From the NCBI RefSeq assembly GCF_004011865.1, contig NZ_RKLP01000004.1:124001-188000 (forward strand): a DNA stretch of 64,000 nucleotides, read 5' to 3'. Positions within the stretch are counted from its first letter, which is position 1; each line of letters begins with the position of its first letter. The notes beneath the pieces were generated by a model. That model saw only the letters and a program-made list of their open reading frames with translations. It searched no databases and was not told where the DNA came from. The position numbers and the translations under genes are program-made. Origin of the DNA: Prescottella agglutinans (GTDB taxonomy: Bacteria; Actinomycetota; Actinomycetes; Mycobacteriales; Mycobacteriaceae). Shown piece by piece: positions 26,509 to 42,501 of this stretch.

Positions 26509-26659
26509 TCTGGGCCGCCTCCTCACATGATTGGTGAAACATGCTCGTAGAGTGGACCGACGTGCGTGTCTCCGACATTGGCACCATCGTCTATCGCAAA
26601 CCGAACCCGTCGGGGTGGTCGGGGATCGCGCCCTGAACTGGGTGATCAGCACTTTCGCA

Positions 26660-26815
26660 ATCCTCGCGGGCGTGGCCGCCGCGTGTCTCTGTGCGGTTGA
26701 GTGCGCCGACGACCGTGACCTCGGCGAGTTCGAGCAGGAAGCCCAGCTCGATGGCCTCGAGCATGTCGCTGTTATAGCGCTTGCTCTCGTCCTGAACCGT
26801 GATTCGCGTGAGCTT
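26660..26815 (-). pseudogene. fragment of succinate dehydrogenase flavoprotein subunit (sdhA)
   Basis: About 50 residues read VQDESKRYNSDMLEAIELG then FLLELAEVTVVGALNRTETRGGHARED. This is the C-terminal helical-domain segment of SdhA, including the conserved S/E-RGGHARED motif. Nothing of the rest of SdhA surrounds it, and the frame runs on into unrelated sequence. It directly abuts the resolvase remnant on the same strand, so it is a stray piece left by a rearrangement rather than a gene. Confidence 0.75.
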
Positions 26816-26825
26816 CGGAGTGGCC

Positions 26826-27135
26826 AGCCACCCATCCGGCCACGGGCACGGGCGGCGGGTCGGCCCCTCACGCGTGTGGGCCACGACCAGCTCGCGCTGC
26901 AGCTCGGCGGGCACCGATAGCGTCCCGAAAGACATCGCGCGGCCTTGGGCGGTGGCGGTGTCGATGCCCTGCTCGGGCACCGCAAAACGACACCGCGCTC
27001 TCGGAGCTGCGCCAGGGTGATCAAGTGCAGCACCGACCGGCCCAACCGGTTCAGCCGTGTGAACACAAGCTGATTCCCTTCGCGTAGCAGCGCCAGGGCC
27101 AGATCCAGCTGCAGGCGGGATCTTTCGCACCGGAT
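26826..27135 (-). pseudogene. decayed serine recombinase (resolvase/invertase)
   Basis: One frame gives LDLALALLREGNQLVFTRLNRLGRSVLHL, the helix and RLNRLGRS motif of the resolvase catalytic domain. The next frame continues GIDTATAQGRAMSFGTLSVPAELQREL, and a further shift gives RPAARARGRMGG. At least two frameshifts and the loss of both the N-terminal catalytic Ser region and the C-terminal helix-turn-helix mean it is inactive. It suggests that a Tn3-like or phage-type element once occupied this spot. Confidence 0.8.
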
Positions 27136-27276
27136 GCGTGATCGACGTGGATGTTCTCGGCACTCACCCGGACAGATCCCCGCCACCGGACAGTTCTCGT
27201 GGCCGCCAATGGGCAGTTCCTACTGGCCCTTGACAGCGATGCTAAAGTGAATTCAGTTCATCTTTGAGGAGGAAGA

Positions 27277-28167
27277 ATGTTCGAGACTTTGCTGTACTCC
27301 GTTTCGGATCAGGTGGCGACGATTACGTTGAATCGCCCCGAAGCGCTCAACACGATCGTTCCGCCGATGCCGGACGAGTTCCAAGCGGCGATCACCGAAG
27401 CAACACGAGATCCGCAGGTGAAGGTCATCGTGCTTCGTGGATCCGGTCGATCTTTCAGTGCCGGCTACGACTTCAGTGGCGGATTTCATCACTGGGACGA
27501 TCAGATCAACACCAACGGGCAGTGGGATGCGGGCAAGGACTTCGTGTTCGCGACCGCGCCGACGGCGTCGCCCACGCAGAAGTTCATGAGCATGTGGCGT
27601 TGCCCCAAGCCGGTCATCGCCCAGGTTCACGGATGGTGCGTCGGCGGCGCCAGCGAGACGGCTCTGTGTGCGGATATCGTCATCGCCTCGGAGGACGCGC
27701 GGATCGGTACGCCGTACTCGCGCATGTGGGGCTGCCACCTGTCCGGGATGTGGATCTACCGCCTCGGACTGGCCAAGGCCAAGGAGTACTCATTGCTCGG
27801 GAAGCCGGTCTCCGGCAAGGAAGCGGCCGAGATCGGATTGATCAACAAGTCCGTCCCGTTCGAGGACCTTGAGGCTGAAGTCGCGCGCACGGCAGAGAAG
27901 CTCGCCGCGATTCCGGTGTCCCAGCTGTCGGCAATGAAGCTGATCGTTAACCAGGCCTACGAGAACATGGGCTTGGCGAGCACACAGACCCTGGGGCCGA
28001 TCCTCGACGGTCTGATGCGCAACACGTCGGAGGCGCGAGAGTTCATCGACATCGCCGAGAACGAGAGCGTCGCCGCGGTCGTGGCGCGTCGTGATGGACC
28101 GTTTGGCGACTATAAGTCTGCTCCGCTGGATGAGCAGCCGAACCCGAACCATGTCATCGTCCCCTGA
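27277..28167 (+). CDS. enoyl-CoA hydratase/isomerase (crotonase) family protein
   Basis: The 296-residue product has the crotonase fold. The oxyanion-hole segments are SGRSFSAGYDFSG (about residues 57-68) and HGWCVGGASETALCADIV (118-135). Glu127 aligns with the first catalytic Glu of enoyl-CoA hydratase, but the position of the second Glu (usually in a QPE motif) reads GTPYSRMWG, so it is not a canonical hydratase. A strong GAGGAGGAAGA site precedes the ATG. TTGACA at 27230 and a TGAATTCA palindrome lie in the short leader. The downstream TetR gene overlaps its 3' end by 17 bases, so the two form an operon. Codon use is less GC3-biased than in the backbone. Confidence 0.85.
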   Translation: MFETLLYSVSDQVATITLNRPEALNTIVPPMPDEFQAAITEATRDPQVKVIVLRGSGRSFSAGYDFSGGFHHWDDQINTNGQWDAGKDFVFATAPTASPTQKFMSMWRCPKPVIAQVHGWCVGGASETALCADIVIASEDARIGTPYSRMWGCHLSGMWIYRLGLAKAKEYSLLGKPVSGKEAAEIGLINKSVPFEDLEAEVARTAEKLAAIPVSQLSAMKLIVNQAYENMGLASTQTLGPILDGLMRNTSEAREFIDIAENESVAAVVARRDGPFGDYKSAPLDEQPNPNHVIVP

Positions 28168-28780
28168 TTCGCTGACAGCGCGCGGGCGAGCCACTCGGCA
28201 GCGCTTGATCGACACAGCTCGTGCGGAGTTGTTGCACGGGGGCGGGACGTTGGAGGTCGCCGCGGTTGCCGAAGCTGCCGAGGTCTCTCCGGGACTGCTG
28301 TACCGGTACTTTGGTGCCAAGGACGGGCTCGTCTCGGCGGTCGTTCACGACTTCTACGACTCGTACAACGATGCGGTGCTGTCGGCGCACATGGCGCCGG
28401 AGGCGGACTGGGCGACTCGTGAGCGGATGCGTCTCGCCCGGGAGATCGATTTCCTCTGCGAGGAGCCGATGGCTCGAATCATCGTGGGGCGGCAGCTGCG
28501 GGAACCCGCAGCTGCCGCTGCGGATGCGGAGCGCCTCGCCGAGCACATCGATCTGGCGGCACGCAATGTCGCGTATGGCCAGCGCATTGGTCAGGTCCCG
28601 GCGTCTATCGATGCCCGCCTGGCGGCAGCCGCCTTCATGGGTGCCTTCCGCGAGCTGATGGCCGAAGCGTTGAGCCGGGAAGTCGTCCCCAGTCGGAAGA
28701 CTCTGTTGGACACGATCTGGGGCTTCGGAGGAAGTCTCGGGCTAGCGGAAGTACCTGAGTCGCGGTCGTCTCAGGCGTGA
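28151..28780 (+). CDS. TetR family transcriptional regulator
   Basis: The 209-residue regulator starts MSSSPDSLTARGRATRQRLID. It has the TetR helix-turn-helix (TLEVAAVAEAAEVSPGLLYRYFGAKDGLVSAV, about residues 33-66) and an all-helical ligand-binding C-terminus. The start is chosen within the 3' end of the crotonase gene; an upstream in-frame ATG adds 20 residues with no conserved character. By coupling it probably controls the crotonase gene, perhaps in response to an acyl-CoA. A TGAATTCA palindrome before the crotonase is a candidate operator. Confidence 0.88.
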   Translation: MSSSPDSLTARGRATRQRLIDTARAELLHGGGTLEVAAVAEAAEVSPGLLYRYFGAKDGLVSAVVHDFYDSYNDAVLSAHMAPEADWATRERMRLAREIDFLCEEPMARIIVGRQLREPAAAAADAERLAEHIDLAARNVAYGQRIGQVPASIDARLAAAAFMGAFRELMAEALSREVVPSRKTLLDTIWGFGGSLGLAEVPESRSSQA

Positions 28781-29259
28781 TGGGCGAGGCAGGCAAGCAC
28801 TCGTGGACAACACGTACGCGGACGACCGGCGCTCGACGGCCGAGTCGCTCGATCTTGCCGCAGGTGGGGGTGGTTGGGCCGGGAGTTCTTCTGCATGATC
28901 CCGAGCCGGCGCAGCACGGTTCGACACGGCCGGAGCCTCAGGCTAGCCCGTCCTCAGTCATGGATCTCCCGGGCCGCCTGTCGGGCACGTCTTGAGACAC
29001 CTGTCCGGGGTGTCCACGACCAGCACACTGCCCCTGCTACCAAATCAGGCCCGGGATTCAGTGCGAATCCCGGGCCTGAAAGCATTTGAGAATTGGTCCC
29101 TCCACCACAAACCCTCCACTTTGAGCCGGTTCGCGGAGCTCAGGGCGGACTTCTGTCCGACGCCGTACTAGCAGCACCGAACGTCACCGAAGAGTCCGGT
29201 GAACGGCGGCACACCTTGTGGTTATGAGGACAGTCGTCAATCCGTTGAACGTGCTCAGC
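28781..29259. other. gene-free stretch with one hairpin
   Basis: No coding frame here resembles a known family. The only structured element is the hairpin at 29045-29079. The stretch leads into the excisionase/integrase remnants. Confidence 0.4.
29045..29079. terminator. strong hairpin, possible terminator
   Basis: A perfect 14-bp inverted repeat (TCAGGCCCGGGATT) has a 7-base loop and is followed by AAAGCATTTG. It lies 265 bases after the TetR stop, so it could end the crotonase-tetR transcript. Confidence 0.6.
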
Positions 29260-29420
29260 CCGCTTGTCGCCGATCACCGAGCTTGCCGAGTATGTCGGCG
29301 TGCCAATCGAGAAGAGATCTACGAGTGGCGCCACGCTGGCCGAGGTCCGGTGGGCGTCCGCATCGGTTATCCCGTCTGCGTGAGATCTCGGTTCGCATGG
29401 GTTGACCAGTTCATCAAGCG
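29260..29420 (+). pseudogene. remnant of a helix-turn-helix excisionase-like protein
   Basis: One frame gives ITELAEYVGVPIEK and, after a frameshift, the next gives EEIYEWRHAGRGPVGVRIG. These are the two halves of the winged-helix domain seen in small excisionases and DNA-binding partners of integrases. The recognition wing (normally RYRxxDLxAW) is only partly present. It stands directly upstream of the integrase remnant, the usual order in integrative elements. Confidence 0.65.
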
Positions 29421-29479
29421 GCTCGCTTCGGCCGAGAGCTACAGCACGGCGAGCAGATACGAACAGTCTTGAGCCTCGC

Positions 29480-30050
29480 TCTCGGATCGGGTGTCAGGTT
29501 CTACGCGCTGCGCGAGATCCGGTTCGCGAGACGTCGCGACTGCACATGGCGCCTTCGCAGACGATGGCCCTGACCTTGGAGCAGCTGGAGGCGATCCGCC
29601 TGACGGTTCGGAGTTGGCGACCGTGGGCCCGGGGTGCCAGGTCCGCTGCCCGCCGGCCAGTTGGAGCAGATCATGAGGTCATGCTCGTACGTCCACTCGG
29701 ATTGGTGAGGTTCTGGCGATCCGACGGTGCGTTGCCGACGTCACGGTCTCGCCTGCCAGGGCGCGCATCTGCGGGGCGGTCGTCTCGCGCAGGGAAGCCG
29801 GCCCATCGGCGGCCTCACCCGAAGACGCAGAAGTCGACGGGCGTGGTGTCGGTGCCTGGTTTCGTAGCCGAGGTCCTTCGACAGCGGCTCGTAGCCGTCG
29901 ACTCTATGGAGCCGGAGCATCTGGTCTTCACTCGCAAAGGCGCGCCGCTCGCGACCACCAACATTCGAAGTCGGCTTCGGGCCGTGCTCCCGGCGGCTGG
30001 GCTCGAGAGTGGCACGCCGCATGCTTTCCGTCGGATGAATGGTCACCACG
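29480..30050 (+). pseudogene. decayed tyrosine recombinase (integrase)
   Basis: Pieces of the catalytic domain are spread over several frames: LTLEQLEAIR near 29.57 kb, then RIGEVLAIRRC near 29.70 kb with the box I Arg. Next come KTQKSTGVVSVPGFVAEVL near 29.83 kb and TPHAFRR near 30.02 kb (box II His-x-x-Arg). The N-terminal arm-binding domain and the terminal Tyr region are not recognisable. Multiple frameshifts show it is dead. It marks the island as having come in, at least partly, with an integrase-based element. Confidence 0.8.
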
Positions 30051-30083
30051 GTGCTGGACCGGACGAGCGGTCCAGCACCGTGG
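30046..30083. repeat. perfect 15-bp inverted repeat at the end of the integrase remnant
   Basis: CCACGGTGCTGGACC and its exact complement enclose an 8-base loop. It begins where the recognisable integrase sequence stops. It may be a terminator or the scar of a short inverted duplication. Confidence 0.6.
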
Positions 30084-30450
30084 CCGGGTTGCGTGGCACG
30101 CCGCCCTTCCCAGTTGACTTCTATGCGGTGTCCTTCTTCGGTGGGCTCGGATTCGCGTTCTTCAACTCGACGGCACAAGTAGTTGCCTCTTATGCTCAGG
30201 CCACCGACGACCATGCCGATCGGTGATCCTCTGTCCCGTGCCGCTAGATTCGGTGGTCTGGCCACCGCGCTGCATGACGGCCCAGGCGGACCTCCGCGCG
30301 CTTCGGAATGCACACGGCGACCGGCACAGCGCGGATTGGCCGGCGCGTCTACCCACGACCTGTGAAACTCGTGCCGCAGCGACCTGATCAGCCGCCACTC
30401 ACCTGACGAGATCGTGGAAATGAGGCGAGGGCGCTCAGCACGCCGACAGG
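30084..30450. other. stretch with no recognisable gene
   Basis: About 370 bases between the integrase remnant and the end of the acyl-CoA synthetase gene. Frames are open but carry no family signature. It probably holds the end of the synthetase transcript. Confidence 0.4.
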
Positions 30451-32082
30451 CTAGAGGTCGCTATACAGCGACTTGATCACGTCCGCGAACTTGGACTGGA
30501 CCGTGCGGCGCTTCAGCTTCAGGCTGGGAGTGAGTTCCCCGCTGTCGACGGTCCACTCCGACGGGAGTACATGGAACCGCTTGACCTGTTCGACACGCGC
30601 CAACTCCTTGTTTGCAGCGTCGACGGCTCCCTGGATTTCCTGGATCACGTGGGGATTCTGACTCAGCTCGGTGACGGAGCTGAACTCGATGCCCGCCGCC
30701 TCGGCCCACTTCTGCGCGTACTCGGGATCGAGCACTATGAGGGCGACGATGTAGCGTTCCCGGTCTCCGTAGGCCAAGGACTGACCGACCAACGGGTGCC
30801 GTGTCAACAACGCTTCGATCGCGACCGGAGCGACGTTCTTCCCGCCGGAGGTGATGATCAGCTCCTTCTTGCGGTCGATGATGTAGAGGAACCCCTCTTC
30901 GTCACACCGGCCGATGTCACCGGTGTGCATCCAGCCGTCCTCATCGGCCGCCGGTGAAACTGTGCCGTCCTCCTGCAGGTATCCGGCGCAGACGATCGGT
31001 CCCCGAATGAGGACCTCGCCGTCCTCGAGCATGCGCATCTCGTTGCCCGAGATCACTTTGCCGACCGAGCCGATGCGCAGTTCATCGGCCGGAGTCGTCG
31101 TGGCAATCCCGGTCGTCTCCGTCATTCCCCAGCCCTCGATGATGGATATGCCGGAATCCTTGAAGTACTGCTGGACATCGGCGACCAGCGGGGCTCCGGC
31201 ACTGCAGGCCCATGTGACGCGGTCGAGTCCGACATCGGCGAGTGTGCTATTCGGGTTCGACCGCAAGCCGGCGGCGATCTTCTCCCAAACGCGTGGTACC
31301 CCAAAGAACAGCGTTGGATGCACCTGGCGAAGGTGCGGGATCAGGTCGTCCAGGTTCGGGCAGAAGGTGACGTGTCCCGCCTTGACGATCGGCGTGTAGA
31401 TCGAGATGATCCGCTCGGCGATGTGTGCGAGGGGGAGGTAGCAGATGTTGCTGGAGTGCTGCGGAATCCCTGTTGCCTCATCGAGGCTCTCGACGTTGGA
31501 GATCACATTGCGATGGGTCAGGATGACGCCCTTGGGAACACCGGTGGTGCCTGAGGTGTAGATCAAGGTCGCCGGATCCTCGGAGGTTACAGCGCGCCAC
31601 TTCGACTCGAAGGCCTCCAGATCGACGTCCTCGACGACGAGTGAATCCCAGGTCCGGAAGCGCGGTTCCTCTGCGGCCGCTGCGTCTTCGTCCAGGACCA
31701 CGATGTGGCGAAGCCCCGGGAGTTGGTCGAGCAGCGGCAGCCAGCGACCGACCTGCTCCTGGCCCTCCAACACGGCCACCACGACCTTGGCGTGCTGGGC
31801 GACGAAGGCGATCTGGGACGTCGGCATCGTGCCGTAGATGGTGGTTGGAACGGCCCCGAGGTGTACAGCGGCCTGGTCGGCGAGCCATTGCTCCGGACGG
31901 TTGGACATCATCAGCGCCACGCAGTCGCCGGGGCCGACGCCCAGGTCGGTGAGGCCTTGTGAGATCTGCGCGATCCTCACCTGGGCTTGTCGCCAGGTCA
32001 GTGTCACCCCCTCGAACGACAGCGCCGGAAGGTCGCCGAACTTCTCAACGTTGCGGTTGACATAGGCGGGAATCGTCAACAT
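30451..32082 (-). CDS. long-chain acyl-CoA synthetase (AMP-forming)
   Basis: The 543-residue ligase activates a carboxylic acid to its CoA thioester via an acyl-adenylate. Visible motifs: the P-loop TLIYTSGTTGVPKGVILTHRN, the GWGMTETTG adenine-binding motif, WMHTGDIGRCDEEGFLYIIDRKKELI and the ITSGGKNVAPVAIE hinge. The overall pattern is the long-chain FadD15/FAA type. The C-terminal catalytic Lys is probably in SLKLKRRTV. It follows the serine hydrolase gene on the same strand with 99 bases between. That gap contains an inverted TTGAAT-N14-ATTCAA pair that might be an operator. Confidence 0.9.
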   Translation of the reverse strand: MLTIPAYVNRNVEKFGDLPALSFEGVTLTWRQAQVRIAQISQGLTDLGVGPGDCVALMMSNRPEQWLADQAAVHLGAVPTTIYGTMPTSQIAFVAQHAKVVVAVLEGQEQVGRWLPLLDQLPGLRHIVVLDEDAAAAEEPRFRTWDSLVVEDVDLEAFESKWRAVTSEDPATLIYTSGTTGVPKGVILTHRNVISNVESLDEATGIPQHSSNICYLPLAHIAERIISIYTPIVKAGHVTFCPNLDDLIPHLRQVHPTLFFGVPRVWEKIAAGLRSNPNSTLADVGLDRVTWACSAGAPLVADVQQYFKDSGISIIEGWGMTETTGIATTTPADELRIGSVGKVISGNEMRMLEDGEVLIRGPIVCAGYLQEDGTVSPAADEDGWMHTGDIGRCDEEGFLYIIDRKKELIITSGGKNVAPVAIEALLTRHPLVGQSLAYGDRERYIVALIVLDPEYAQKWAEAAGIEFSSVTELSQNPHVIQEIQGAVDAANKELARVEQVKRFHVLPSEWTVDSGELTPSLKLKRRTVQSKFADVIKSLYSDL

Positions 32083-32181
32083 CGTTAGAGCCTTTCACTT
32101 TGCAGGGGTTGAATCGGGTCGGGTGACCATTCAAGAAGCGGACGGATTAGCGCATCCGGCGAGTACCCCGAGAGTGGGAGC

Positions 32182-33300
32182 TCACAGGAGCGTGTAGATC
32201 TGGGATAGAAGGAGGCGTGCCCTCTCAGAGCCGACCAGGTCGGGCGCCATCTTGTTCATTACGTAGGCAACGACCAGGTGGTTGGCAGGGTCGATGACCA
32301 GCATCGAGCCGCCCCAGCCGCCCCAGACGCCGGCTCCTTCTGGGAGGTAGTCGAAGCTTGCTTTGGTGGCGAGCGCGAGTCCGAGTCCCCACTGCAGCGA
32401 CAGCCCGAGCACGAGGTCGGGGCCGTCGGAGTGTGCCTCGAACACGCGTGTTCGTACGGCGGGCCGCACGAGGCGGTCATCGAGGAAGGCTTCTCCTACG
32501 AGGGCCACTGAGCGCGCGTTGCCGTGGCCGTTCGCGGCGCCGATGTCGGCGTCGCGCCAGGCATCGGTGAGTGTTGCTTCGGCACTCACGCGGGGAGCGG
32601 TGAACGTCCGTTTGAACAGCGGTGGTCGGTCGTGCGCCAATGGTGGTGGTGATGCGGTCGGTGGGATCAGGGTGGCCGCCCGCGAACGCAAGGCTCTCGG
32701 GAGCCCGATGTGGATGTCGGCACCGAGTGGCTGTGCGACGTACGTGGTGACGTAGTCGCGCAGTGGCATGCCCGCCGCACGACGCAGGAGTTCGGACAGG
32801 GGTGTTCCGAATGAGGTGGCGCCGTACCCGGACGCAGTACCCGGGGTCCACCACGTTTCCTGGCTCGCGAGGCGGGATGCGGCGTAAGGGTGGTCGTAGA
32901 GATTGTCGAGAGTGAAGGGAGGGTCCCAGGCACAGACACCGCTGGAGTGGGAGAGGAGCTGGGCGAGGGTGACCGAGGCTTTGCCGCCCGCTGCGAACTC
33001 GGGCCACAAGTTCGCCACCGGCGCGTCAAGGTCGAGCAGCCCGCGATCCGCTGCGTGGAGCACCGCCAGCGTGGAGACGACCTTCGTGATCGACCAAATG
33101 TTGACGAGTGTGTCACGCTCCCAGGCATCGGCGCCCGCGGGCGCTCCGACGCGGCCTGCCCACAGGTCGGCCAGAACCCGTCCGGCCTGCCGCACGTGGA
33201 TGCTGACGCCGATCTCTTCTCCGGCGGCGAGTTGCTGGCTGAGGAGGTCTCGCAGTGGCTCGAAGGCCGGATCGGTGTGGCCGTGGACGATCTCGTTCAT
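32182..33300 (-). CDS. beta-lactamase-fold serine hydrolase (family VIII esterase-like)
   Basis: The 372-residue enzyme belongs to the class C beta-lactamase/penicillin-binding-protein fold group that includes family VIII esterases. The SxxK nucleophile motif is WSITKVVS (about residue 70), and the second motif Tyr is probably in GYGATSFG. The C-terminal GGWGGSMLVIDP matches the GWG/GGG wall of the active site. There is no signal peptide, so it is cytoplasmic. Its start overlaps the stop of the upstream acyl-CoA synthetase (ATGA), so the two are translationally coupled, suggesting that the synthetase acts on the acid released by this esterase. Substrate unknown. Confidence 0.85.
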   Translation of the reverse strand: MNEIVHGHTDPAFEPLRDLLSQQLAAGEEIGVSIHVRQAGRVLADLWAGRVGAPAGADAWERDTLVNIWSITKVVSTLAVLHAADRGLLDLDAPVANLWPEFAAGGKASVTLAQLLSHSSGVCAWDPPFTLDNLYDHPYAASRLASQETWWTPGTASGYGATSFGTPLSELLRRAAGMPLRDYVTTYVAQPLGADIHIGLPRALRSRAATLIPPTASPPPLAHDRPPLFKRTFTAPRVSAEATLTDAWRDADIGAANGHGNARSVALVGEAFLDDRLVRPAVRTRVFEAHSDGPDLVLGLSLQWGLGLALATKASFDYLPEGAGVWGGWGGSMLVIDPANHLVVAYVMNKMAPDLVGSERARLLLSQIYTLL

Positions 33301-34853
33301 TGGATCCGGCGCTCGTGGCCGGCCCAGGCCTGGTCCCGCAGGACGTACTTCTGGATCTTGCCGGTCGAAGTCTTGGGAAGGTCGGTGAATACGACGAGCT
33401 TGGGTGCCTTGTAGCGCGCGAGCCGGTCCTTGACCCACTGGGCGATCTCGTCCTCGGTCGCGGACTGCCCGGGTTTGAGGGTTACGAACGCCGCGGGCAC
33501 CTCTCCCCACATTTCGTCAGGAGTGGCGATTACCGCGACCTCCAGGACCGCGGGGTGGTCGGCGATGACTTGCTCGACCTCGACGGAGGCGATGTTCTCG
33601 CCGCCGGAGATGATGACGTCCTTGCTGCGATCGCGCAGCTCGACATAGCCGTCAGGGTGCATGACGCCCAGGTCCCCGGTGAGGAACCAGCCGTCGCGAC
33701 ATACCTCCTCGGTGGCCTGCTCGTCTTTGAGGTAGCCGAGCATGAGGTTGTTGCCACGCAGCGCGATCTCGCCGATGGTCACGCCGTCGAGTGGCACGTC
33801 CTGGCCGTTGGGAGTGATGACGCGGGCGGTACAGGCGATCATGTTGGCGACGCCCTGGCGTGCCTTAAGGCGGGCCTGTTCTTCGACGCTAAGAGCGTTC
33901 CATTCGGGGCGCCAGTCGCAGATCATGGCGGGGCCGTAGGTCTCGGTGAGCCCGTAGAGGTGGGTGACGTCGAAACCAAGTCGGCTCATCTCTCGCAAGA
34001 TCGCGGGCGAGGGCGGGGCCCCTCCGGTGGCCAGCTTGACTGAGCGGTCCAGCGGGACAGCGCCGTCGGCGTACGCGATCATCGACAGCACCGTCGGGGC
34101 TCCGCACAGGTGGGTCACGCCCTCGTCGCGAAGCAGCCGCCAGATCTCGCTCGGATCGACCTTCGGGAGACACACGTGGGTGGCTGCGGCAGCGGTGACA
34201 GCCCAGGGAAAGGTCCATCCGTTGCAGTGGAACATCGGCAGGGTCCACAGGTAGGCCGACGACGTGTTCATTCCCATGTGACCGACCATTGAGACAGCCT
34301 GCAAGAACGCGCCTCGGTGGTGGTACATGACGCCCTTGGGGCGACCGGTGGTGCCCGAGGTGTAGTTGATCGAGATGACGCTGCGCTCGTCGTGTACAGG
34401 CGTGCGGAGCGGATCGGAGCCGGTGATGAGCGCCTCATACTGCTCGCCCACCTCCACGAGTCGCAGTCCCGGAACCGCCGCGGACACCGTGGCAGCGAGG
34501 TCGGTGAAGGTGGGGTCGTAGATCAACACTGACGCTTCGGAGTGCTCGATGACGGACTGCACCTCACGCGCCGAGAGCCGGGTGTTGATCGCCACGAGCG
34601 GGACCCCCGCCCACGGCACGCCGTAGTGGGCCTCCAGCAGCACGTGCGTGTTGGGAGCGATCACAGCGATCGGGCGGCCCTCTGCCAGCGGTGCAAGCCC
34701 GCCCGCTAACCGGCCAGCTCGCTCGTAGAGTTCGTCGTAGGTCCATCGCTGGTCGCCGTCGATGACGGCGATCCGGTTGCCGTGGCTGTCCTTGGCGCGC
34801 TGGAGGTAGGACAGCGGTGTCAGTGGCTCGTAGGACATGGCCGGGTCGATCAT
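33297..34853 (-). CDS. acyl-CoA synthetase (AMP-forming), medium-chain/FadD3-like type
   Basis: The 518-residue ligase shows SINYTSGTTGRPKGVMYHHRG as the ATP P-loop, HLYGLTETYGPA, WFLTGDLGVMHPDGYVELRDRSKD, the ISGGENIASVEVE hinge and the catalytic Lys in LPKTSTGKIQKYVLR. It is of a different subgroup from the neighbouring ligase. The start at MIDPAMSYEPLTPL is chosen for the CAGGAGAACCC site before it; 26 further upstream codons are not family-like. Downstream the serine hydrolase overlaps by four bases. Its place next to a hydrolase and a monooxygenase suggests a carboxylic acid from ring or ketone cleavage as substrate. Confidence 0.9.
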   Translation of the reverse strand: MIDPAMSYEPLTPLSYLQRAKDSHGNRIAVIDGDQRWTYDELYERAGRLAGGLAPLAEGRPIAVIAPNTHVLLEAHYGVPWAGVPLVAINTRLSAREVQSVIEHSEASVLIYDPTFTDLAATVSAAVPGLRLVEVGEQYEALITGSDPLRTPVHDERSVISINYTSGTTGRPKGVMYHHRGAFLQAVSMVGHMGMNTSSAYLWTLPMFHCNGWTFPWAVTAAAATHVCLPKVDPSEIWRLLRDEGVTHLCGAPTVLSMIAYADGAVPLDRSVKLATGGAPPSPAILREMSRLGFDVTHLYGLTETYGPAMICDWRPEWNALSVEEQARLKARQGVANMIACTARVITPNGQDVPLDGVTIGEIALRGNNLMLGYLKDEQATEEVCRDGWFLTGDLGVMHPDGYVELRDRSKDVIISGGENIASVEVEQVIADHPAVLEVAVIATPDEMWGEVPAAFVTLKPGQSATEDEIAQWVKDRLARYKAPKLVVFTDLPKTSTGKIQKYVLRDQAWAGHERRIQ

Positions 34854-34924
34854 GGGTTCTCCTGAATCGTCTTGTGATCTGATCGGAGGCTTGGCAGCCG
34901 GCGGCATAGCCTGGTCACCGCGGC

Positions 34925-35190
34925 GAGCCACCTGTCGCGGTCGGCGACGCGGTCATGCTCGTGAGCGCCAGCAACATCGCGGGGCCCCAAGGGCTGCCCT
35001 GTAACGGCAAGGGTGTCTTCGGCGTTTTGGGCATCTGGGTACGGGCCGCCTGCGGACACATGCAGTGCACTGCGATGCTGTCGTCGGCGTGCGTGATAGC
35101 GAGCCATTCGGCAAGGGCCACGGTCGCCGCTCGTGAACTTCGAGCACGGCTCCTCGCGCGGTGATCGGCTCGGGCAGACGCGCACCATAT
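34925..35190 (-). pseudogene. C-terminal remnant of a short-chain dehydrogenase
   Basis: VALAEWLAITHADDSIAVHC followed by MCPQAARTQM is the segment after the YxxxK motif in SDRs (normally KHAAVALAEWLAI...VHCLCPQGVRT). A different frame continues DTLAVTGQPLGPRDVA, the usual next helix. The Rossmann half is gone. It lies upstream of the acyl-CoA synthetase and close to the intact SDR, so it may be an older homologue that was replaced. Confidence 0.7.
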
Positions 35191-35375
35191 ACCGAGAAGA
35201 CCGCCTCGCTGGATCGATCGGCGGCACGCCCCTGGCCACGCATCAACGCCGACGCGTCGACGTTTCCCGCGGTGGCGACCAGCCGACGCGTGCGCGATAT
35301 CAACGCCGATGTAGTACATGGGAGAGTGCTCCTTGCTGGGAGTTGTGCTCGGTCGTACAGAGCTGCAGATGGCGC

Positions 35376-36146
35376 TCAGCGGAAGAGTCCGGTCAGAGCG
35401 AGCCCCGCTCCACCGTCGAGGCGAAGTGTGCGGCCGGTGATGTATCCCGCGGCGGGAGAGAGCAGGAAGAGGATCGGACCGACAACCTCGTCGAGAGTTC
35501 CGGTGCGGTGCATGGGAACGCCAGCGAGCATCCGCTCACGCGCGGTGGCCGGCATGGCGAGCACTTTCGGGGTGTCGAAGAGGCCGGGCGCGACGGCGTT
35601 GACACGGATGCCATCGCTGACCCACTCGGTCGCCAGTGTGGCCGTCAGGCCGACCAGGCCGGCCTTGGCCGCGGCGTACGACGCCTGCCCGGGCAAGCCA
35701 TCGAGGCCTGCCTGGGAGGTAACGAAGGTAATGGCTGCGTTCTCGGCCTCCCGCAGGTAGGGGTAGGCCGCCTGAGCCACTCGGAACTGGCCGGTGAGGT
35801 TCACGTCGACGTCGGCCTGGAACGCTTCCCCGGGGAAAGCCGCCGCTCGGTGAATCGTGTCCACCACCCCGGCAGCGCCGACAAACGAGTCAATGCCGCC
35901 CAATCGTTCGGCGGCATCAGCGACCGCCTTGCCGACCTCGTCGCCTTTGGTCAGATCGGCCTCGATGATGACCTGACCCTCCGCTGTCGTCTCCGACACG
36001 CGGTCGATGCCGACGACGTGAGCTCCAACCTCGAGCAGCGCGGCGCTCAGAGCCTGGCCAAGTCCCCCAGCGGCGCCAGTGAGCAGAACCCGTGTGCCGG
36101 GACGAGGCAGAGGGGACCAGGTGCGCTCGGCAATGTTGTTCAGCAA
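35376..36146 (-). CDS. short-chain dehydrogenase/reductase
   Basis: The 256-residue SDR oxidises an alcohol or reduces a ketone with NAD(P). The cofactor motif is VLLTGAAGGLGQAL, with Asp in VVGIDR favouring NAD(H). NAG is replaced by GAAG (VGAAGVVD). The catalytic Ser is in ITFVTSQAG and Tyr/Lys in ASYAAAKAG. The start is a TTG (MLNNIAERTW) with GGAGG 11 bases upstream. A 22-bp palindrome shared with the monooxygenase gene lies 45 bases before the start, probably an operator for the TetR encoded next door. It is oriented away from that TetR gene. Confidence 0.88.
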   Translation of the reverse strand: MLNNIAERTWSPLPRPGTRVLLTGAAGGLGQALSAALLEVGAHVVGIDRVSETTAEGQVIIEADLTKGDEVGKAVADAAERLGGIDSFVGAAGVVDTIHRAAAFPGEAFQADVDVNLTGQFRVAQAAYPYLREAENAAITFVTSQAGLDGLPGQASYAAAKAGLVGLTATLATEWVSDGIRVNAVAPGLFDTPKVLAMPATARERMLAGVPMHRTGTLDEVVGPILFLLSPAAGYITGRTLRLDGGAGLALTGLFR

Positions 36147-36190
36147 GACGACTCAGACCTCCGCATTATCGGCCGGACCTAAGATCCAGC

Positions 36191-36212
36191 ATGTCGATCA
36201 TTTGATCGACAT
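36191..36212. promoter_or_regulatory. palindromic operator upstream of the SDR gene
   Basis: ATGTCGATCA-TT-TGATCGACAT is a perfect inverted repeat. Its core TGTCGATC-N4-GATCGACA is identical in both half-sites to the palindrome before the monooxygenase gene at 38.9 kb. It lies about 20 bp upstream of a GATAAT -10-like hexamer on the minus strand. Confidence 0.75.
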
Positions 36213-36669
36213 CACATGAAACCACTCCCTCAGCTCTGCGTCAAGGAGAAAATGTGACCGCCGCCACGGCGTGGGTTGAGGTCTGGGATTGCCGAGTGGG
36301 GCGCTCGACGAAGTGATGGGCGCCACATTCTGTCCGCGTCGCCCTTGATGTCGACCATCGATACGCACCCTGTTCGCTGACCCGTGAACGGAGTCCCGAT
36401 ACCCGCGATACCTCACAACGCATCAACCCACCTGCCGCGTAAGCTCGTGGCCGCCGGCCTTGGCGAGCCGTGCCTTGGAGGGGCATGGCCACTTCATCAG
36501 GGGCACCGCGCAGCGCTCGTCCTCGGATCCGCGTTCTTTCCCGACGCGTTGTAACAGCACCTGCTGTCCTTAGCCGCCGTCCGGCGGGCTTCATCGCCCA
36601 CCCGCTCGGCGGAGTCATCCTTGCGTCCATGGGGCGGTCGCGTCGGGGCGACACAGTGGGGGTGGTCGT
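36213..36669. other. stretch with no recognisable gene
   Basis: About 450 bases between the SDR operator and the MFS remnant. It probably contains the rest of the decayed transporter's 3' end on the minus strand, but I cannot align it. Confidence 0.35.
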
Positions 36670-36840
36670 TGTTCCGGAAGAGTGGACATGCGCCGGGAAG
36701 AGCTCGGCGATGTAGGGCGGCGGGGCTGTAGCAGACGCCCGCTGAGCCGTAGCGCACAAAGCTGGCGATACCCACCAGCACGATGTCCCCCGTGTCGCTG
36801 CACCTAGCGGCGATGGCGGCGATCGCACTCGTCTCCCGCG
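36670..36840 (-). pseudogene. remnant of an MFS (metabolite:H+ symporter) transporter
   Basis: One frame gives VLVGIASFVRYGSAGVCYSP, a TM segment. After a frameshift comes YIAELFPAHVHSSG, the conserved Y-x-AELFP-x-x-V-R-x-SG motif of the shikimate/proline/aromatic-acid MFS subfamily. No intact copy surrounds it. It suggests that an uptake transporter once accompanied the catabolic genes. Confidence 0.65.
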
Positions 36841-37121
36841 CTGCTGCTCCCGGGGGCCTACCGGAGGTCGGACTTGGCGGTTGGGGCGGCAAGTGTCGGC
36901 GAGCCACGCGAGGGTACTCTCAGCGATCGTTGAGGACGGACAGGCCATGAATCCGGCTTGGTCTGCACATCCGGGGATGCAGGCACATTCGGGACTACGT
37001 CCGCGTGCCGCGCTACCAGAGTGGCCGGCGGCCGATCGGCGCTGACGGCCCCGCGGGATAATCTGCCGAACGTCGCCGTCCGCAATCGGCAGGCGGTCGT
37101 GACGTCAGGAAAGGGGTTCGG

Positions 37122-37724
37122 GTGGCTCGCAAGCGTTCCCTGGACGAAGGACCGGTGCTGCGCGGGCAGATCATGGCGGCATCCGCCAAGCTCTTCTACG
37201 AGCGTGGATATGCTGCCACCTCCATTCGCGACATCGCAGAGGCGGTCGATATCTCGTCCTCGACGATGTACCACCATTTCAAGAACAAGCAGGAGGTTCT
37301 GCACGCCATCGTCACGCAGTTCATGACGGACTTCGTGGCGGAGATGGACGAGATCCTGCGCGACAAGACGCTAGCGCCGACCGATCGGATCCGGCAGACC
37401 GTGCGTAAGCACATCGAGTTCAGTGATGACCGGCGCCCGGAGCTTCTCGTCGGCAACCCAATTCGAAATGCCCTGGATGCGGATCAGCAGAGGGAAGGTA
37501 TCCGTCTCCAGTCCGCTTACCACGACGCTGTACGGGACACGATCAAGGATGGCGTCGACTCTGGGGAGTTCGACGTTCCTGACGTCGCCGTCGCCACCAT
37601 GGCCGTGCTCGACATGCTGAACGGTGTTCGCGAATGGTTCACCCCGCGGGGCACGCTGACCAGGGATGCGCTCGTCGAACGCTACGTCTGTCTCGTCCTG
37701 CGGTTGTTGGGCGCGGACCGGTAG
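37122..37724 (+). CDS. TetR family transcriptional regulator, candidate controller of the SDR and monooxygenase genes
   Basis: The 200-residue regulator starts at a GTG (VARKRSLDEG). It has the TetR DNA-binding domain: LFYERGYAATSIRDIAEAVDISSSTMYHHFKNKQEVLHAI (about residues 25-64), where TMYHHFKNK is the recognition helix end. The C-terminal ligand domain is helical. It lies between the divergent SDR and the monooxygenase, whose upstream regions share one palindrome, so it is the best candidate to bind it. Its own leader lacks a copy of the palindrome, so it may not be autoregulated. Confidence 0.9.
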   Translation: MARKRSLDEGPVLRGQIMAASAKLFYERGYAATSIRDIAEAVDISSSTMYHHFKNKQEVLHAIVTQFMTDFVAEMDEILRDKTLAPTDRIRQTVRKHIEFSDDRRPELLVGNPIRNALDADQQREGIRLQSAYHDAVRDTIKDGVDSGEFDVPDVAVATMAVLDMLNGVREWFTPRGTLTRDALVERYVCLVLRLLGADR

Positions 37725-37884
37725 AGGGATTCGTCCCACACGCCAACGGCGCGTAGGACGGGGCCGGCAACAGGCATCGCGGTGGCGACCTTCTTCGAGA
37801 TCGTGTCCATAGGCCCGCACTTACCTCAGCGCGCCCCGATGCGTGCCTGATCATGGTGCCACCATGGGCGTTGTCTGGCTCAGC

Positions 37885-38230
37885 TGCCGCTTCAAGATCT
37901 TGCCGCTGGCGTTCAACGGCTTCTCGTCGAGGAACTACCAATTCCACTGGCACCTTGTAGTCGGCCAGACGCTGCGCGGCTAAGGTGCTCAGCGATTCCT
38001 CAGTGGGCTGCACGCCCGGCTCAGGAACGAGCGCTACGCAGACGCGCTTGCCGAACAAGTCGTCAGGGCGACCGAATACCGCAACCCGCGCGACGTCGAG
38101 GTGCGCGGCGATGGCGCTCTCGAACTTCAGGCTGTACACGTTTCGGCCGCCGCGGATGGATCATGTCCTTGCTGCGCCCCAGTACATGCACACAGCTCTC
38201 AGCGTCCTATGGATCCGACGTCTCCGGTGC
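37885..38230 (-). pseudogene. C-terminal part of an acyl-CoA ligase
   Basis: Read on the minus strand: TGDVGSIG, then VHVLGRSKDMIH, NVYSLKFESAIAAHLDVARV, FGRPDDLFGKRVCVALVPE, LADYKVPVELVV and, after a frameshift, LDEKPLNASGKILKRQL. This is the hinge and C-terminal domain of an AMP-forming ligase with the catalytic-Lys segment. It breaks at 38,228-38,234, exactly where an IS256 fragment on the other strand begins. The preceding part of the ligase lies inverted at 38,555-38,714. Confidence 0.8.
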
Positions 38231-38505
38231 ACAGCGCCTGGAGCGAGTTCGTGCCTTCCTCGACTGCGACCCGGAAATCAGGCGAGTCATATGTAGTCCA
38301 ATGCGATCGAGAGTATCGATGCCCGCTATTGGCGTGCAATCCGGGCCCGAGAGCATTTCCCCAGCGATCAAGTGCCTGCATTTGGCGACACGGACCCTCA
38401 GCCCGACGGAAATGGGAAGAGCGCGATGGGCAGCGAGGCGGGAAGCCGACCCTGATCGTCTTCGCTGTCACGTTCGAAGACTGGACCACCCCGAGTGAAA
38501 CCTAA
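38230..38505 (+). pseudogene. C-terminal fragment of an IS256-family transposase (inverted piece)
   Basis: Frames on the plus strand give SAWSEFVP, FLDCDPEIRRVIC, IDARYWRAIRAREHFP and the ending TLIVFAVTFEDWTTPSET before a TAA. This matches the end of IS256-family transposases (normally W-x-x-AW-x-EFVPFL-x-x-x-x-EIR...NAIES-x-NAR-x-RR). Several frameshifts are present. Its N-terminal neighbour lies on the opposite strand at 38.7-38.8 kb. Confidence 0.75.
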
Positions 38506-38554
38506 ACCGATGCGCCAGAACCGGATCCACCGGATAACTGACATTCCCTCGGCC

Positions 38555-38714
38555 GCGCCGGCGACGGTGTCGAGGTGCGCGTGCGGCACGAGTTCGGCGA
38601 GCGTTTCGTCGACGAGCCGGACACGGTCGGAGAACTGTGCGTGCGTGGCCCCATCGTGACGGTCTGCTACGCGGGAGCCAGGTTGCGACCGCCACCTACT
38701 GGGATGGCTGGGCT
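38555..38714 (+). pseudogene. middle part of the same acyl-CoA ligase (inverted piece)
   Basis: On the plus strand: GDGVEVRVRHEFGERFVDEP, then DTVGELCVRGPIVTVCYAG and, in a second frame, ATATYWDGW. This is the segment of AMP-forming ligases just before the W-x-HTGD motif, and the next residues (HTGDVGSI) are found on the minus strand at 38.23 kb. Confidence 0.75.
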
Positions 38715-38830
38715 GCACAGCCGAACGATGGCGGGATATCGCAGGCCCCACTTGGTGGCGAACTCGTCGAACCGTTCGCTGGCCGCGGCCTCGGTGTAGA
38801 CGGGCATCAGATCGCGTGACAACAGCGACG
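38715..38830 (-). pseudogene. internal fragment of an IS256-family transposase
   Basis: The minus strand reads RDLMPVYTEAAASERFDEF then ATKWGLRYPAIVRL, which is the segment preceding W-x-x-AW-x-EFVPFL in IS256 transposases. The sequence breaks off after RL, and the continuation is on the plus strand from 38,230. Confidence 0.75.
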
Positions 38831-38898
38831 GCTGTCTGGCGTCGACGAGATCGTGTTGTCGTTGGAAAGGGCAGTTGCGGCAAGCCCGTCCAACGCCG

Positions 38899-38928
38899 TA
38901 GCGTGTCGATCGATTGATCGACACGCTA
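38899..38928. promoter_or_regulatory. palindromic operator upstream of the monooxygenase gene
   Basis: TAGCGTGTCGATC-GATT-GATCGACACGCTA is a perfect 13-bp inverted repeat with a 4-base centre. It ends two bases before the AGGAG ribosome-binding site of the monooxygenase gene. The core TGTCGATC-N4-GATCGACA is the same as before the SDR gene. A bound repressor here would cover the transcription start region. Confidence 0.8.
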
Positions 38929-38940
38929 TGAGGAGTCTTC

Positions 38941-40461
38941 ATGAATACCTACTCCGCGCAGTCCAGCGCAGCGCCAGCTCCCGAGACCGCCGCCACAGGA
39001 TCTGTCCTCATCATCGGGTCAGGCTTCAGCGGGCTCGCCATCGCCGCGAAGCTCGAGGAGGCCGGAATCTCCGACTGGCTGATCCTGGAGCACGCCGACC
39101 GCGTAGGCGGCACCTGGCGCGACAACACCTACCCCGGCTGCGCCTGCGACATCCCCTCGCCGCTGTACTCTTACTCCTTCGACCAGAACCCCAACTGGTC
39201 ACACCTCTTCGCTCCCCAGCCAGAGATCCTCGAGTACCTGGAGACCTTTGCCCACCGTCGCGGTCTCACCGGAAGGATCCGATTCGGCCGACGGGTAGCC
39301 GCCGCCGAATGGGACGAACGGCAACAGACATGGACCGTGACGACTGCTGACGGCGAACGATACGAGTACACCCATCTCGTCTCCGCCGTCGGACTTCTGC
39401 ACCGCCCCAAGGCTCCGGCCATCCCCGGTCTCGAGAACTTCGCCGGCACCGCCTTTCATTCGGCACAGTGGAACCACGACTACGACCTGACCGGCAAACG
39501 GATCGCGGTCATCGGCACCGGCGCGAGCGCCATCCAGTTCGTGCCAGCCATAGCCGACCAGGTCGCCTCCATGACCGTCTTCCAGCGCTCTGCCCCCTGG
39601 ATCATGCCCAAAGCTGACCGCCCTTTCGATGAGGACGAGAAGCGCAAGCTCCGCCGCTTTCCAATTCTGAAGTGGTATCGGCGCGCAAGGTTGTACTGGC
39701 AGCACGAAGAACGGGCCGAAGGGTTCACCAATGTCGCGAGCGACAACGACAAGACCGTCGCTTACGCACGAAGGCATCTTGAGCGTCAGGTTCCCGACCC
39801 CGAGCTACGCGCGAAACTAACCCCCGACTACGCCCTGGGCTGCAAGCGCCTGCTGATCTCCAGCAACTACTACCCAGCCCTGATGAAGTCGCACGTCAAC
39901 CTTGTCAACGAAGGCATCCGGGAGATCACCGCAACGTCGGTGATCACCGACACCGGTGAGGTCATCGATGCCGACTGCATCATCTTCGGCACCGGATTCG
40001 ACGCCCAAAATGCTCTCGCCGAGGTCGACATCATCGGCCGCACTGGCATGCTGCTCGACAAGGCGTGGGCCACCGGCATGAACGCCTACCTCGGCACAAC
40101 CGTGAACGGGTTTCCCAACTTCTTCATTCTCTGCGGACCCAACACCGGACTCGGGCACAACTCCCAAGTTTTCATGATCGAGCGACAGGTCCGGTACACG
40201 ATCGCCGCCATCAAGGCAGCCCGGCGCCGCGGTTCGATCGAGGTCACTGCACAGGCCCAAGGGCGGTTCCGTGCATGGTTGCACGCCCAGATGTCGCACA
40301 CCGTGTGGAACGCCGGCGGCTGCACGAGCTGGTACCTGGATCCCCGAACGGGCGAGAACACCCTGCTGTGGCCGTCATCCACCGTCGACTTCTGGAAGAA
40401 GACAGTCCGAATCAAGCCCTCCGACTACACTTTTACGAAGTCTCGCGGCATCTCTCGATAA
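38941..40461 (+). CDS. Baeyer-Villiger-type flavin monooxygenase
   Basis: The 506-residue protein is a class B flavin monooxygenase that would use NADPH, FAD and O2 to turn a ketone into an ester or lactone. The FAD Rossmann motif is GSGFSG (residues 26-31), followed by GGTWRDNTYPGCACD (56-70). The type I Baeyer-Villiger fingerprint F-x-G-x-x-x-H-x-x-x-W is FAGTAFHSAQW (167-177), followed by Asn where Pro or Asp is usual. The NADPH motif is GTGASA (192-197). AGGAG lies five bases before the ATG, and an operator palindrome just upstream. Substrate unknown; 4-hydroxyacetophenone- and cyclic-ketone-type enzymes are the nearest relatives in outline. Confidence 0.9.
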   Translation: MNTYSAQSSAAPAPETAATGSVLIIGSGFSGLAIAAKLEEAGISDWLILEHADRVGGTWRDNTYPGCACDIPSPLYSYSFDQNPNWSHLFAPQPEILEYLETFAHRRGLTGRIRFGRRVAAAEWDERQQTWTVTTADGERYEYTHLVSAVGLLHRPKAPAIPGLENFAGTAFHSAQWNHDYDLTGKRIAVIGTGASAIQFVPAIADQVASMTVFQRSAPWIMPKADRPFDEDEKRKLRRFPILKWYRRARLYWQHEERAEGFTNVASDNDKTVAYARRHLERQVPDPELRAKLTPDYALGCKRLLISSNYYPALMKSHVNLVNEGIREITATSVITDTGEVIDADCIIFGTGFDAQNALAEVDIIGRTGMLLDKAWATGMNAYLGTTVNGFPNFFILCGPNTGLGHNSQVFMIERQVRYTIAAIKAARRRGSIEVTAQAQGRFRAWLHAQMSHTVWNAGGCTSWYLDPRTGENTLLWPSSTVDFWKKTVRIKPSDYTFTKSRGISR

Positions 40462-40770
40462 CGGGAGCCCGACAAGGCGTTGAGAGCAGTGGCCGCGTCA
40501 CCTTGGACTTGGCCTTCGCCGAGCCGACGTCCTACCGCACTCCCTATCCTCAAGCTCGGTGACCACTCACCGTCACCACAGGCCGGCCAGTCAGGAGACT
40601 CTGCTTCCAGAGGGGCCGCCGACAGGGGCAGCGGGCCAACGTGGGCTGTTGATCGGACTGCTCCCGGCGAGCGTCTGCGCGGTCTTGGTACTGAGCCGTA
40701 GGTGATTCCCCGATCGCCTCGCCATGGGCCACATCGAAGCTGGCTGCCCCTCCCCGGTCGCATCGTGAGC

Positions 40771-40847
40771 TGTCAGCGTCGGTTGAAAACTGACCCCGGA
40801 GCGTCGGGGATTCTACGGAAGGGGTCAATGTTCGACCGACGCTGACA
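40771..40847. mobile_element. 77-bp miniature element made of two IS21-like terminal inverted repeats
   Basis: The 27-base sequence at 40,771-40,797 (TGTCAGCGTCGGTTGAAAAC then TGACCCC) recurs inverted at 40,821-40,847 with three mismatches. The two enclose 23 bases. The TGTCAGCG...TTGAAAACTGACCCC form resembles the ends of actinobacterial IS21-family elements. No transposase is present, so it is a miniature derivative or a collapsed insertion. Confidence 0.65.
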
Positions 40848-40926
40848 AGATCTTGCTCGCCGAATCGCCCCGTTGCACGGATTGGTGGTATCTGATCTGC
40901 GGTGCCGCGAGGCACTGTTGGCAGGA

Positions 40927-41310
40927 TGTGCACTGGGCCGAAGCCGTATCCCAAGGAGTTCTGCGACGAACGTCGTCCGCGTGGCGAGCAACCGAGAACC
41001 ACGTCAGCTCAAGTAGATCGCCACGGGTTTCGGGATCAGCGAGTCCTGCCTGACCAACTGGCTCTAGTACGCCGACGTCGAGGACGGCATCAAGCCAGGA
41101 AGCACCGTCGGCGAGAATACGGAGTTGAGCGAAAGCCCGGAAGCGTATCCGGCTGCTGAGCAGGAGAAGGAGGTCCTGCGGCGCCGCAGCCTATCTATCG
41201 TAGGCGAATCTGCCGGGAAAATGATCTACCCGCTCGTCCGTGACGCCGACGGGATCCCCGTCCACGCCGACGCGACGCACTGGCCCGCTACGCGCTCACC
41301 ACCGACGCGT
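40927..41310 (+). pseudogene. decayed IS3-family transposase OrfA (with start of OrfB)
   Basis: Pieces in three frames read PKPYPKEFCDERRP, ISESCLTNWL, YADVEDGIKPGSTVGENTEL, EQEKEVLRRRSL and GKMIYPLVRDADGIPV. These match the helix-turn-helix and leucine-zipper parts of an IS3 OrfA and the first residues of OrfB. There is an in-frame TAG after NWL at 41,065-41,067 plus several frameshifts. The catalytic DDE domain is absent. Confidence 0.8.
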
Positions 41311-42410: not shown

Positions 42411-42412
42411 CA

Positions 42413-42461: not shown

Positions 42462-42501
42462 GGTCCACTTGGTCCACTGCCTCGGGAATGTCGAAAATTC
42501 C

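Follow-up and report, generated by a model that had tools for sequence, protein, structure and literature searches.

A probable TetR-controlled island for secondary alcohol or ketone catabolism with a Baeyer-Villiger monooxygenase in Prescottella agglutinans

The island and its eight intact genes

Prescottella agglutinans belongs to the family Mycobacteriaceae and has a genome of 5.42 Mb (G000). The DNA analysed here is a stretch of 64,000 nucleotides from its contig 17 (NZ_RKLP01000004.1, positions 124,001 to 188,000), hereafter called the window, and the subject is an island of 17.4 kb in it (25373..42766), which carries a Baeyer-Villiger monooxygenase (BVMO) together with other catabolic and regulatory genes. 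The island was probably acquired horizontally, the direction of transfer being presumed, and its genes probably constitute a TetR-controlled set for the catabolism of a secondary alcohol or ketone by a Baeyer-Villiger route. It is bounded on the left by recA (24335-25372, minus strand) and on the right by a DUF3046-type gene (42767-42961, minus strand; the DUF3046 label is our assumption). These two genes are only 186-222 bp apart in nine of the 13 other congeners and 17.4 kb apart in the window, and this unoccupied site confirms the status of the region as an island. The spacing is 994-1312 bp in three congeners (L130, L135 and L138), and in L139 the DUF3046-type gene was not found within the stretch fetched around recA.

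Eight genes at 27277-40461 are open from start to stop by open reading frame (ORF), Pfam and NCBIfam calls, and their families and positions agree with those listed in an earlier note, which was made from the letters alone. On the left, a crotonase-family gene (27277-28167, plus strand; NF009125/PRK12478, 530 bits against a cut-off of 347) is overlapped at its stop by the gene of a TetR regulator, TetR1 (28151-28780, plus strand), the ORF of which is open from 28091 and for which relatives suggest a start near 28151. Three genes on the minus strand follow. FadD-A (30451-32082) is a FadD11-like acyl-coenzyme A (CoA) ligase with AMP-binding and AMP-binding_C_3 domains; its best NCBIfam score is to FadD11, 438.6 against a cut-off of 950, so the threshold is not reached. 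The esterase (32182-33300) has the class C β-lactamase fold (PF00144, 197 bits) and an SITK (SxxK) motif, and its closest solved chain is 7y3z, a fenoxaprop-p-ethyl hydrolase (330 bits), while its NCBIfam scores are below the cut-offs of LipL (113.8 against 650) and AcmB (19.9 against 550). FadD-B (33297-34931) is a PRK08162-like acyl-CoA ligase at 650 bits, slightly below the cut-off of 677. Both ligases have the YTSGTTG loop. The stop of FadD-B and the start of the esterase overlap as ATGA (33297-33300), in line with the translational coupling claimed earlier. The remaining genes are a short-chain dehydrogenase/reductase (SDR; 35376-36146, minus strand) with a YxxxK motif and an Asp ending strand 2, a second TetR regulator, TetR2 (37122-37724, plus strand; TetR_C_24), and the BVMO (38941-40461, plus strand).

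Type I BVMOs are characterized by the fingerprint FxGxxxHxxxW(P/D), by a second motif, (A/G)GxWxxxx(F/Y)P(G/M)xxxD, and by two Rossmann motifs. The window enzyme has FAGTAFHSAQWN at the fingerprint, with Asn instead of Pro or Asp at the last position, which was counted as a match, and its relatives in the same clade carry Asp or Asn there; the second motif is GGTWRDNTYPGCACD, and the Rossmann motifs are GSGFSG and GTGASA (GxGxxA). By these motifs it is a type I BVMO, and activity on ketones is predicted. In a tree of 25 BVMOs the window enzyme forms one clade (100/100) with those of plasmid pCP105, described below, and of the genomes G281, G069, G153, G081, G108 and G221 (two copies). This clade of nine is separate from five paralogues of the own genome and from 11 other BVMOs, and the sister of the window enzyme is that of pCP105 (99/98). 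For a first tree, identical copies were discarded, as were eight alignments shorter than 400 residues, and L112 and L113 repeated the genes of L123 and L124; for the second, of 25 rows, L112 and L113 were removed and G153, G221 (two) and G069 were added. The own genome has at least five more BVMO genes of the same family, on contigs 1, 5 and 12.

Operator-like palindromes and related clusters

The perfect 20-bp palindrome TGTCGATC-N4-GATCGACA occurs twice in the 64 kb, once before the SDR (TGTCGATCATTTGATCGACA, 36192..36211, plus strand, 45 bases before the start) and once before the BVMO (TGTCGATCGATTGATCGACA, 38904..38923, plus strand, 17 bases before the start), and in 100 shuffles its mean count was 0.00 and the largest 0. 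These are putative operators of TetR2, and because the SDR and the BVMO have one operator sequence, their co-induction is predicted. Another palindrome, TAAAGTGAATTCACTTTA, is present with two mismatches before the crotonase (TAAAGTGAATTCAGTTCA, 27243..27260, plus strand, 16 bases before the start, 2 of 18 positions off consensus), and none of 100 shuffles contained it at up to three mismatches; it is the putative operator of TetR1. The pairing of each regulator with its operator is presumed from position.

Both kinds of sites are found in other genomes. When one mismatch is allowed in the 14 core bases, the TetR2-type site stands before the SDR in seven of ten cluster loci, that is, besides the window, in pCP105, G281, G081, both copies of G221 and G153, and in pCP105 such sites are also located before the BVMO and a third ligase. 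A background of 1.38 Mb of other fetched loci, which partly overlap each other, gave one match with at most one mismatch and none that was perfect; excluded from it were the window, nine loci with clusters and another 21 loci, of which 20 were the window's own or overlapped a cluster and one (L003), a paralogue, could have been kept. Furthermore, a TAAAGTGAATTCACTTTA-type site precedes the crotonase in all six crotonase-bearing cluster loci, the five others with 0-2 mismatches.

The same genes are arranged in a compact divergent form, here called form A, in G081, G153 and G221: TetR, ligase, TetR1 and crotonase on one side, and SDR, esterase, BVMO and FadD-A on the other. G221 has two copies (L155 and L156); the one on a 775-kb contig lacks the ligase, and the other is on a 6.0-Mb contig. 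Identity of the window genes to form A is 77-80% for the crotonase, 65-72% for TetR1, 61-63% for FadD-A, 58-62% for the BVMO, 50-53% for the SDR, 44-45% for TetR2 and 33-34% for the esterase. FadD-A adjoins the BVMO in G081, G108, G153 and G221, and the SDR adjoins it or is one gene away in these four and in G069; in G281 the SDR and the BVMO are in one same-strand run, and in pCP105 only a TetR gene is between them. The earlier note had proposed that the island genes form one set and that the same set be sought elsewhere, and its homologues proved not always to be apart, being clustered in G081, G153 and G221 and, in part, in G108. Since the same genes recur compactly elsewhere and two perfect palindromes precede the SDR and the BVMO, the gene set exceeds chance, and sequence comparison supports the view that SDR, BVMO, esterase, ligase, crotonase and TetRs belong together.

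The genome searches sampled genomes and scored only some of the candidates in each (two per genome for HyuB, described below), so the counts are lower bounds. With the own genome included, matches were obtained for FadD-A in three and for the crotonase in nine of 151 genomes of the family, and for the BVMO in six of 401 genomes (E 1e-165, at most three candidates scored per genome, all five other BVMO genomes read). Six of the eight other crotonase-bearing genomes belong to g29.

The esterase and FadD-B were tried as anchors and rejected. Relatives of the esterase are present in 76 of the 151 family genomes, own included, the best being 46% identical outside the own genome, and 38 loci, with identities of at most 44% in the best segments listed, had no such gene set; a weak BVMO homologue (25-34%) adjoins the esterase in L040, L041 and L042. 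For FadD-B, six of the nine other genomes matched were read (G250, G028, G220, G188, G236 and G017), and none of these has the set. The FadD-B neighbourhood of G250 contains an MFS (major facilitator superfamily) gene, a TetR gene (35%) and a BVMO from a different branch, and those of G220 and G236 contain a BVMO homologue of 28-29%. Another BVMO gene set is seen on plasmid 3 of Tsukamurella tyrosinosolvens (L074 3220-11593), in which an alcohol dehydrogenase, a BVMO, an α/β-hydrolase, a LuxR-type regulator and an AMP-binding protein are clustered.

Remnants, plasmid pCP105 and the Hyu genes of relatives

A close relative of part of the island is a 15-kb cluster on pCP105 of Rhodococcus opacus S8, with the order esterase, FadD-B, second SDR (SDR2), HyuB, HyuA and SDR, and, divergently, TetR, BVMO, third ligase and MFS transporter. 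The accessible part of the S8 genome paper names a “cyclohexanone monooxygenase” and an SDR-family oxidoreductase on this plasmid (PMC9229178), and in its main text “hydantoinase”, “ketone” and “acetone” have 0 occurrences each (PMC9229178). The cluster has homologues of five intact window genes, namely the esterase (49-50% identity), FadD-B (70%), SDR (59-60%), TetR2 (64%) and BVMO (65-66%), as well as the same operator, and all four genes that are remnants in the window are whole in it. Although its esterase is annotated with a more internal start, the homology extends back to the same ATGA overlap. It differs from the window in that HyuA, HyuB, SDR2, the third ligase and the MFS transporter are intact, and in that the crotonase, TetR1 and FadD-A are absent from the 15 kb read.

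Comparison with pCP105 reveals what was lost. Between the SDR and FadD-B there are about 5.3 kb in pCP105 and 0.45 kb in the window, which hold a HyuA scrap and then an SDR2 scrap. The HyuA remnant (35127-35306, minus strand) is 63 residues of the hydantoinase/oxoprolinase type, 58% identical to residues 75-137 of the HyuA of pCP105 (698 residues), and the SDR2 remnant (34972-35124, minus strand) is 49% identical over 51 amino acids; HyuB has no match anywhere in the window. The MFS transporter remains as pieces in two orientations (36411-36634, plus strand, and 36667-36796, minus strand), and the third ligase as a C-terminal part (37881-38157, minus strand) and a middle part on the opposite strand (38545-38706, plus strand). 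The earlier note had recognized the traces of the transporter and the third ligase and had missed the HyuA and SDR2 remnants (34972-35306). By this comparison the most informative lost genes are HyuA/HyuB and SDR2, of which only HyuA and SDR2 scraps are left. Elsewhere in the genome there is a single further HyuA homologue, with 33% identity to that of pCP105, and none of the HyuB candidates scored (two of seven) matched at E 1e-100.

The window set is, on these identities, a hybrid of the two cluster forms plus leftover, because its SDR, TetR2, BVMO, FadD-B and esterase resemble those of pCP105 more closely and it has the crotonase, TetR1 and FadD-A in common with form A.

HyuB relatives of more than 70% identity came from a single genome (G281) among 397 of the order and from a single one (G609) among 394 of the class. 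G281 has a TetR gene divergent from a run of SDR, HyuA, HyuB, ligase and BVMO; G609 has SDR, HyuA, HyuB and ligase with no BVMO in the 19 kb read. The SDR-HyuA-HyuB-ligase set is thus common to pCP105, G281 and G609, whose SDRs are 59-62% identical to that of the window. In G281 (C95, L101, about position 3495) the HyuB frame breaks near the end of the gene, before the gamma-like part; this may be an assembly error, and the genome is incomplete. More distant HyuB relatives were rejected: G346 and G278 (33-34%) have Hyu genes, and G894 (44%) has Hyu genes with other ligases, all with no BVMO match. On plasmid p2 of Caballeronia grimmiae (L144 855-9074), HyuA, HyuB, an α/β-hydrolase, a BVMO and an iron-containing alcohol dehydrogenase are in a row, and this BVMO sits outside the clade of the window enzyme.

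The function of HyuA and HyuB leans towards a ketone carboxylase, as judged by profile scores. The 769-residue HyuB of pCP105 has two NCBIfam matches at E 1e-30, to ApcD, the delta subunit of acetophenone carboxylase (186.7 bits, cut-off 1500), and to caprolactamase beta (163, cut-off 1000), and HyuB C-termini score against PF08882 (acetone carboxylase gamma; cut-off 21) with 21.5 bits in pCP105, 22.9 in G609 and 20.8 in G894; the frame-broken copy of G281 gives no PF08882 match. A carboxylase is made less certain by these PF08882 scores, all marginal (20.8-22.9 bits against 21), and by HyuA, which scores best not against a carboxylase but against a lactamase (caprolactamase alpha, 443.5, cut-off 1000, then acetophenone carboxylase gamma, 340.5, cut-off 1500). 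The acetophenone carboxylase pathway consists of an SDR, a carboxylase and a CoA ligase, which resembles the SDR-HyuA-HyuB-ligase order of the relatives, the more so as ApcD is the best match of HyuB. However, the relatives score far under the equivalog cut-offs and have only two Hyu subunits, the best match of HyuA is caprolactamase alpha, and the window keeps only the scrap.

BVMO and Hyu genes are in a single same-strand run in G281 and under the same operator sequence in pCP105. It is conceivable, although we regard it as rather unlikely, that one TetR operator controls two competing attacks on the same ketone, namely O2-dependent Baeyer-Villiger oxidation and O2-independent, ATP-dependent carboxylation by HyuA/HyuB with a fused gamma-like domain, and that the lineage of the window discarded the carboxylating half. 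Should the carboxylase prove real, a single regulatory circuit would in some actinobacteria govern two chemistries for activating ketones, a pairing absent from the titles and abstract starts of the matching papers.

Predicted pathway, alternatives and further features of the island

In the proposed route, the SDR would oxidize an alcohol to a ketone, the BVMO, with FAD, NADPH and O2, would convert the ketone to an ester or lactone, the SxxK esterase would hydrolyze this product, FadD-B and/or FadD-A would convert the acid to its CoA thioester, and the crotonase would act on the thioester. A TetR2-type repressor would bind TGTCGATC-N4-GATCGACA both ahead of the run of SDR, FadD-B, esterase and FadD-A and ahead of the BVMO, and TetR1 would bind the TAAAGTGAATTCACTTTA-type site ahead of the crotonase. 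The ancestor would also have had HyuA and HyuB, the latter with an acetone-carboxylase-gamma-like C-terminus, and a ligase and transporter of its own, that is, an apparent branch of ATP-dependent ketone carboxylation lost from this genome. An Asp after strand 2 is typical of NAD-type SDRs, so NAD and the direction of oxidation are suggested. A cyclic ketone as the substrate is a guess, made because hydrolysis of a lactone yields a hydroxy acid directly fit for CoA ligation.

The view of the earlier note that these genes form one set is supported, and the BVMO has the type I fingerprint; what the note lacked is that two cluster forms are combined in the window and that a possible ketone carboxylase was lost. 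Its assignment of the crotonase to a step like β-oxidation is doubtful. Canonical enoyl-CoA hydratases have two catalytic Glu residues. The first is kept in the window and form A proteins and is Asp in two g29 homologues, whereas at the position of the second (Glu in the solved relative 4k29) there is Tyr147, invariant in all seven aligned sequences, window included. With Tyr in place of the second Glu, plain hydration is questionable, and isomerase or C-C cleaving chemistry appears as likely as hydration. The AlphaFold model of the crotonase (mean predicted local distance difference test score, pLDDT, 40.3) is too low in confidence for use.

Several points weigh against a joint, functional set. 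When three mismatches are allowed, there are still two TetR2-type sites in the window, but 0.77 are expected and 17 of 100 shuffles gave two or more. Three of the ten cluster loci (G609, G108 and G069) have no site with at most one mismatch before the SDR, and two one-mismatch sites are inside the TetR1 genes of G081 and G108, an improbable place for an operator. The cluster of G108 is partial, that is, without the esterase, the TetR-side ligase and the outer TetR; in G069 only the SDR and BVMO were seen, its crotonase and BVMO being on different contigs. Crotonase homologues (67%) stand alone in both g29 neighbourhoods read. Moreover, the esterases of the two forms, being only 33-34% alike, may not be orthologues, and the ongoing decay of the island may have left this copy of the pathway only partially functional.

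Known systems share parts of this logic. In the mymA operon of Mycobacterium tuberculosis, a BVMO is accompanied by an esterase, an SDR and an acyl-CoA synthetase (VirS, LipR, AdhD, Tgs4, FadD13), a likeness of gene content; its regulator VirS is of the AraC type, its esterase LipR is of the α/β-hydrolase type, and it is not known to contain a crotonase or Hyu genes. In Gordonia, the acetone monooxygenase AcmA and the methyl acetate hydrolase AcmB likewise pair a BVMO with a β-lactamase-fold ester hydrolase, from which the window esterase is remote, as its AcmB score indicates, and acmAB is not known to include ligases or a crotonase. MlhB, the lactone hydrolase of Rhodococcus erythropolis DCL14, is presumably of a different fold from the window esterase. 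For limonene and carvone, the accessible part of the source on this strain describes a dehydrogenase, a BVMO, an ε-lactone hydrolase and CoA activation, that is, a route from alcohol through ketone and lactone to a hydroxy acid and then its CoA thioester (PMC7794910). The likeness is one of chemistry, and a crotonase/TetR pair and Hyu genes are not mentioned in that part (PMC7794910). The earlier opinion that no named pathway matches needs restriction, because the BVMO-hydrolase-CoA activation logic is known for monoterpene ketones in the same text (PMC7794910). As to the gene set itself, no report was found by titles and abstract starts, subscription papers being mostly outside the search.

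Among other explanations, an unlikely one is detoxification or lipid modification, that is, the BVMO would act on sulfur or nitrogen compounds or fatty carbonyls like EthA or MymA and the ligases would serve lipid remodelling. The mycobacterial EthA and MymA activate ethionamide and are tied to lipid metabolism, according to the accessible part of a paper on them (PMC9044951), and FadD11 as the best score of FadD-A fits this too; however, an operator-linked SDR with esterase and ligases, together with the Hyu genes of relatives, points to carbonyl catabolism, and the BVMO, unlike core lipid genes, is rare (six of 401 genomes). Also improbable is an ancestral pathway of SDR, HyuA/HyuB ketone carboxylase and ligase, like that for acetophenone, to which the BVMO and esterase were added later and of which the window contains a dead copy. 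The set common to pCP105, G281 and G609, the absence of a BVMO from the stretch read in G609 and the loss of HyuA/HyuB from the window would fit, but in the stretches read the form A clusters contain the BVMO and lack HyuA/HyuB, and eight open genes with catalytic motifs and two perfect operators are not what neutral decay predicts. Finally, a chance gathering of separately derived genes by insertion sequences (IS), suggested by IS256, IS3 and recombinase fragments and the scrambled arrangement, is rejected as highly improbable, because the same genes are clustered in four other genomes (one partial) and the operator ties the SDR to the BVMO. With the Baeyer-Villiger route remaining the probable one, an open guess on one locus becomes a testable regulon with intact clusters elsewhere, a defined operator and a BVMO clade.

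The mobile-element traces in the island are a recombinase-like fragment (26810-27161), an IS256-type fragment (38229-38555) between the two third-ligase remnants and touching the second, and an IS3-type fragment (40884-41272). In addition, one plus-strand frame at 28780-30451, a remnant, looks by eye like a C-terminal piece of a tyrosine recombinase and includes an HAFR-type motif. Base composition backs the island status only in part: guanine + cytosine (G + C) is 64.4% in the island, 71.6% in the right flank (42767-50000) and only 66.6% in the left flank (20000-25372), so that the left edge would not be recognizable from composition by itself. Third-position G + C is 0.75-0.84 in the eight island genes, 0.82-0.93 in six ORFs at 20317-25372 and 0.87-0.90 in three at 43002-45823. 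Rfam and tRNA scans gave no match at the locus. A plasmid origin, as judged by DNA similarity, was rejected: megablast matched 49 records, none covering 80% of the query, and each of the 20 matches listed covers 2%. In G153, which is of the same genus as the window, recA is at C1:862729 and the cluster is near C1:4509593, that is, at a different site.

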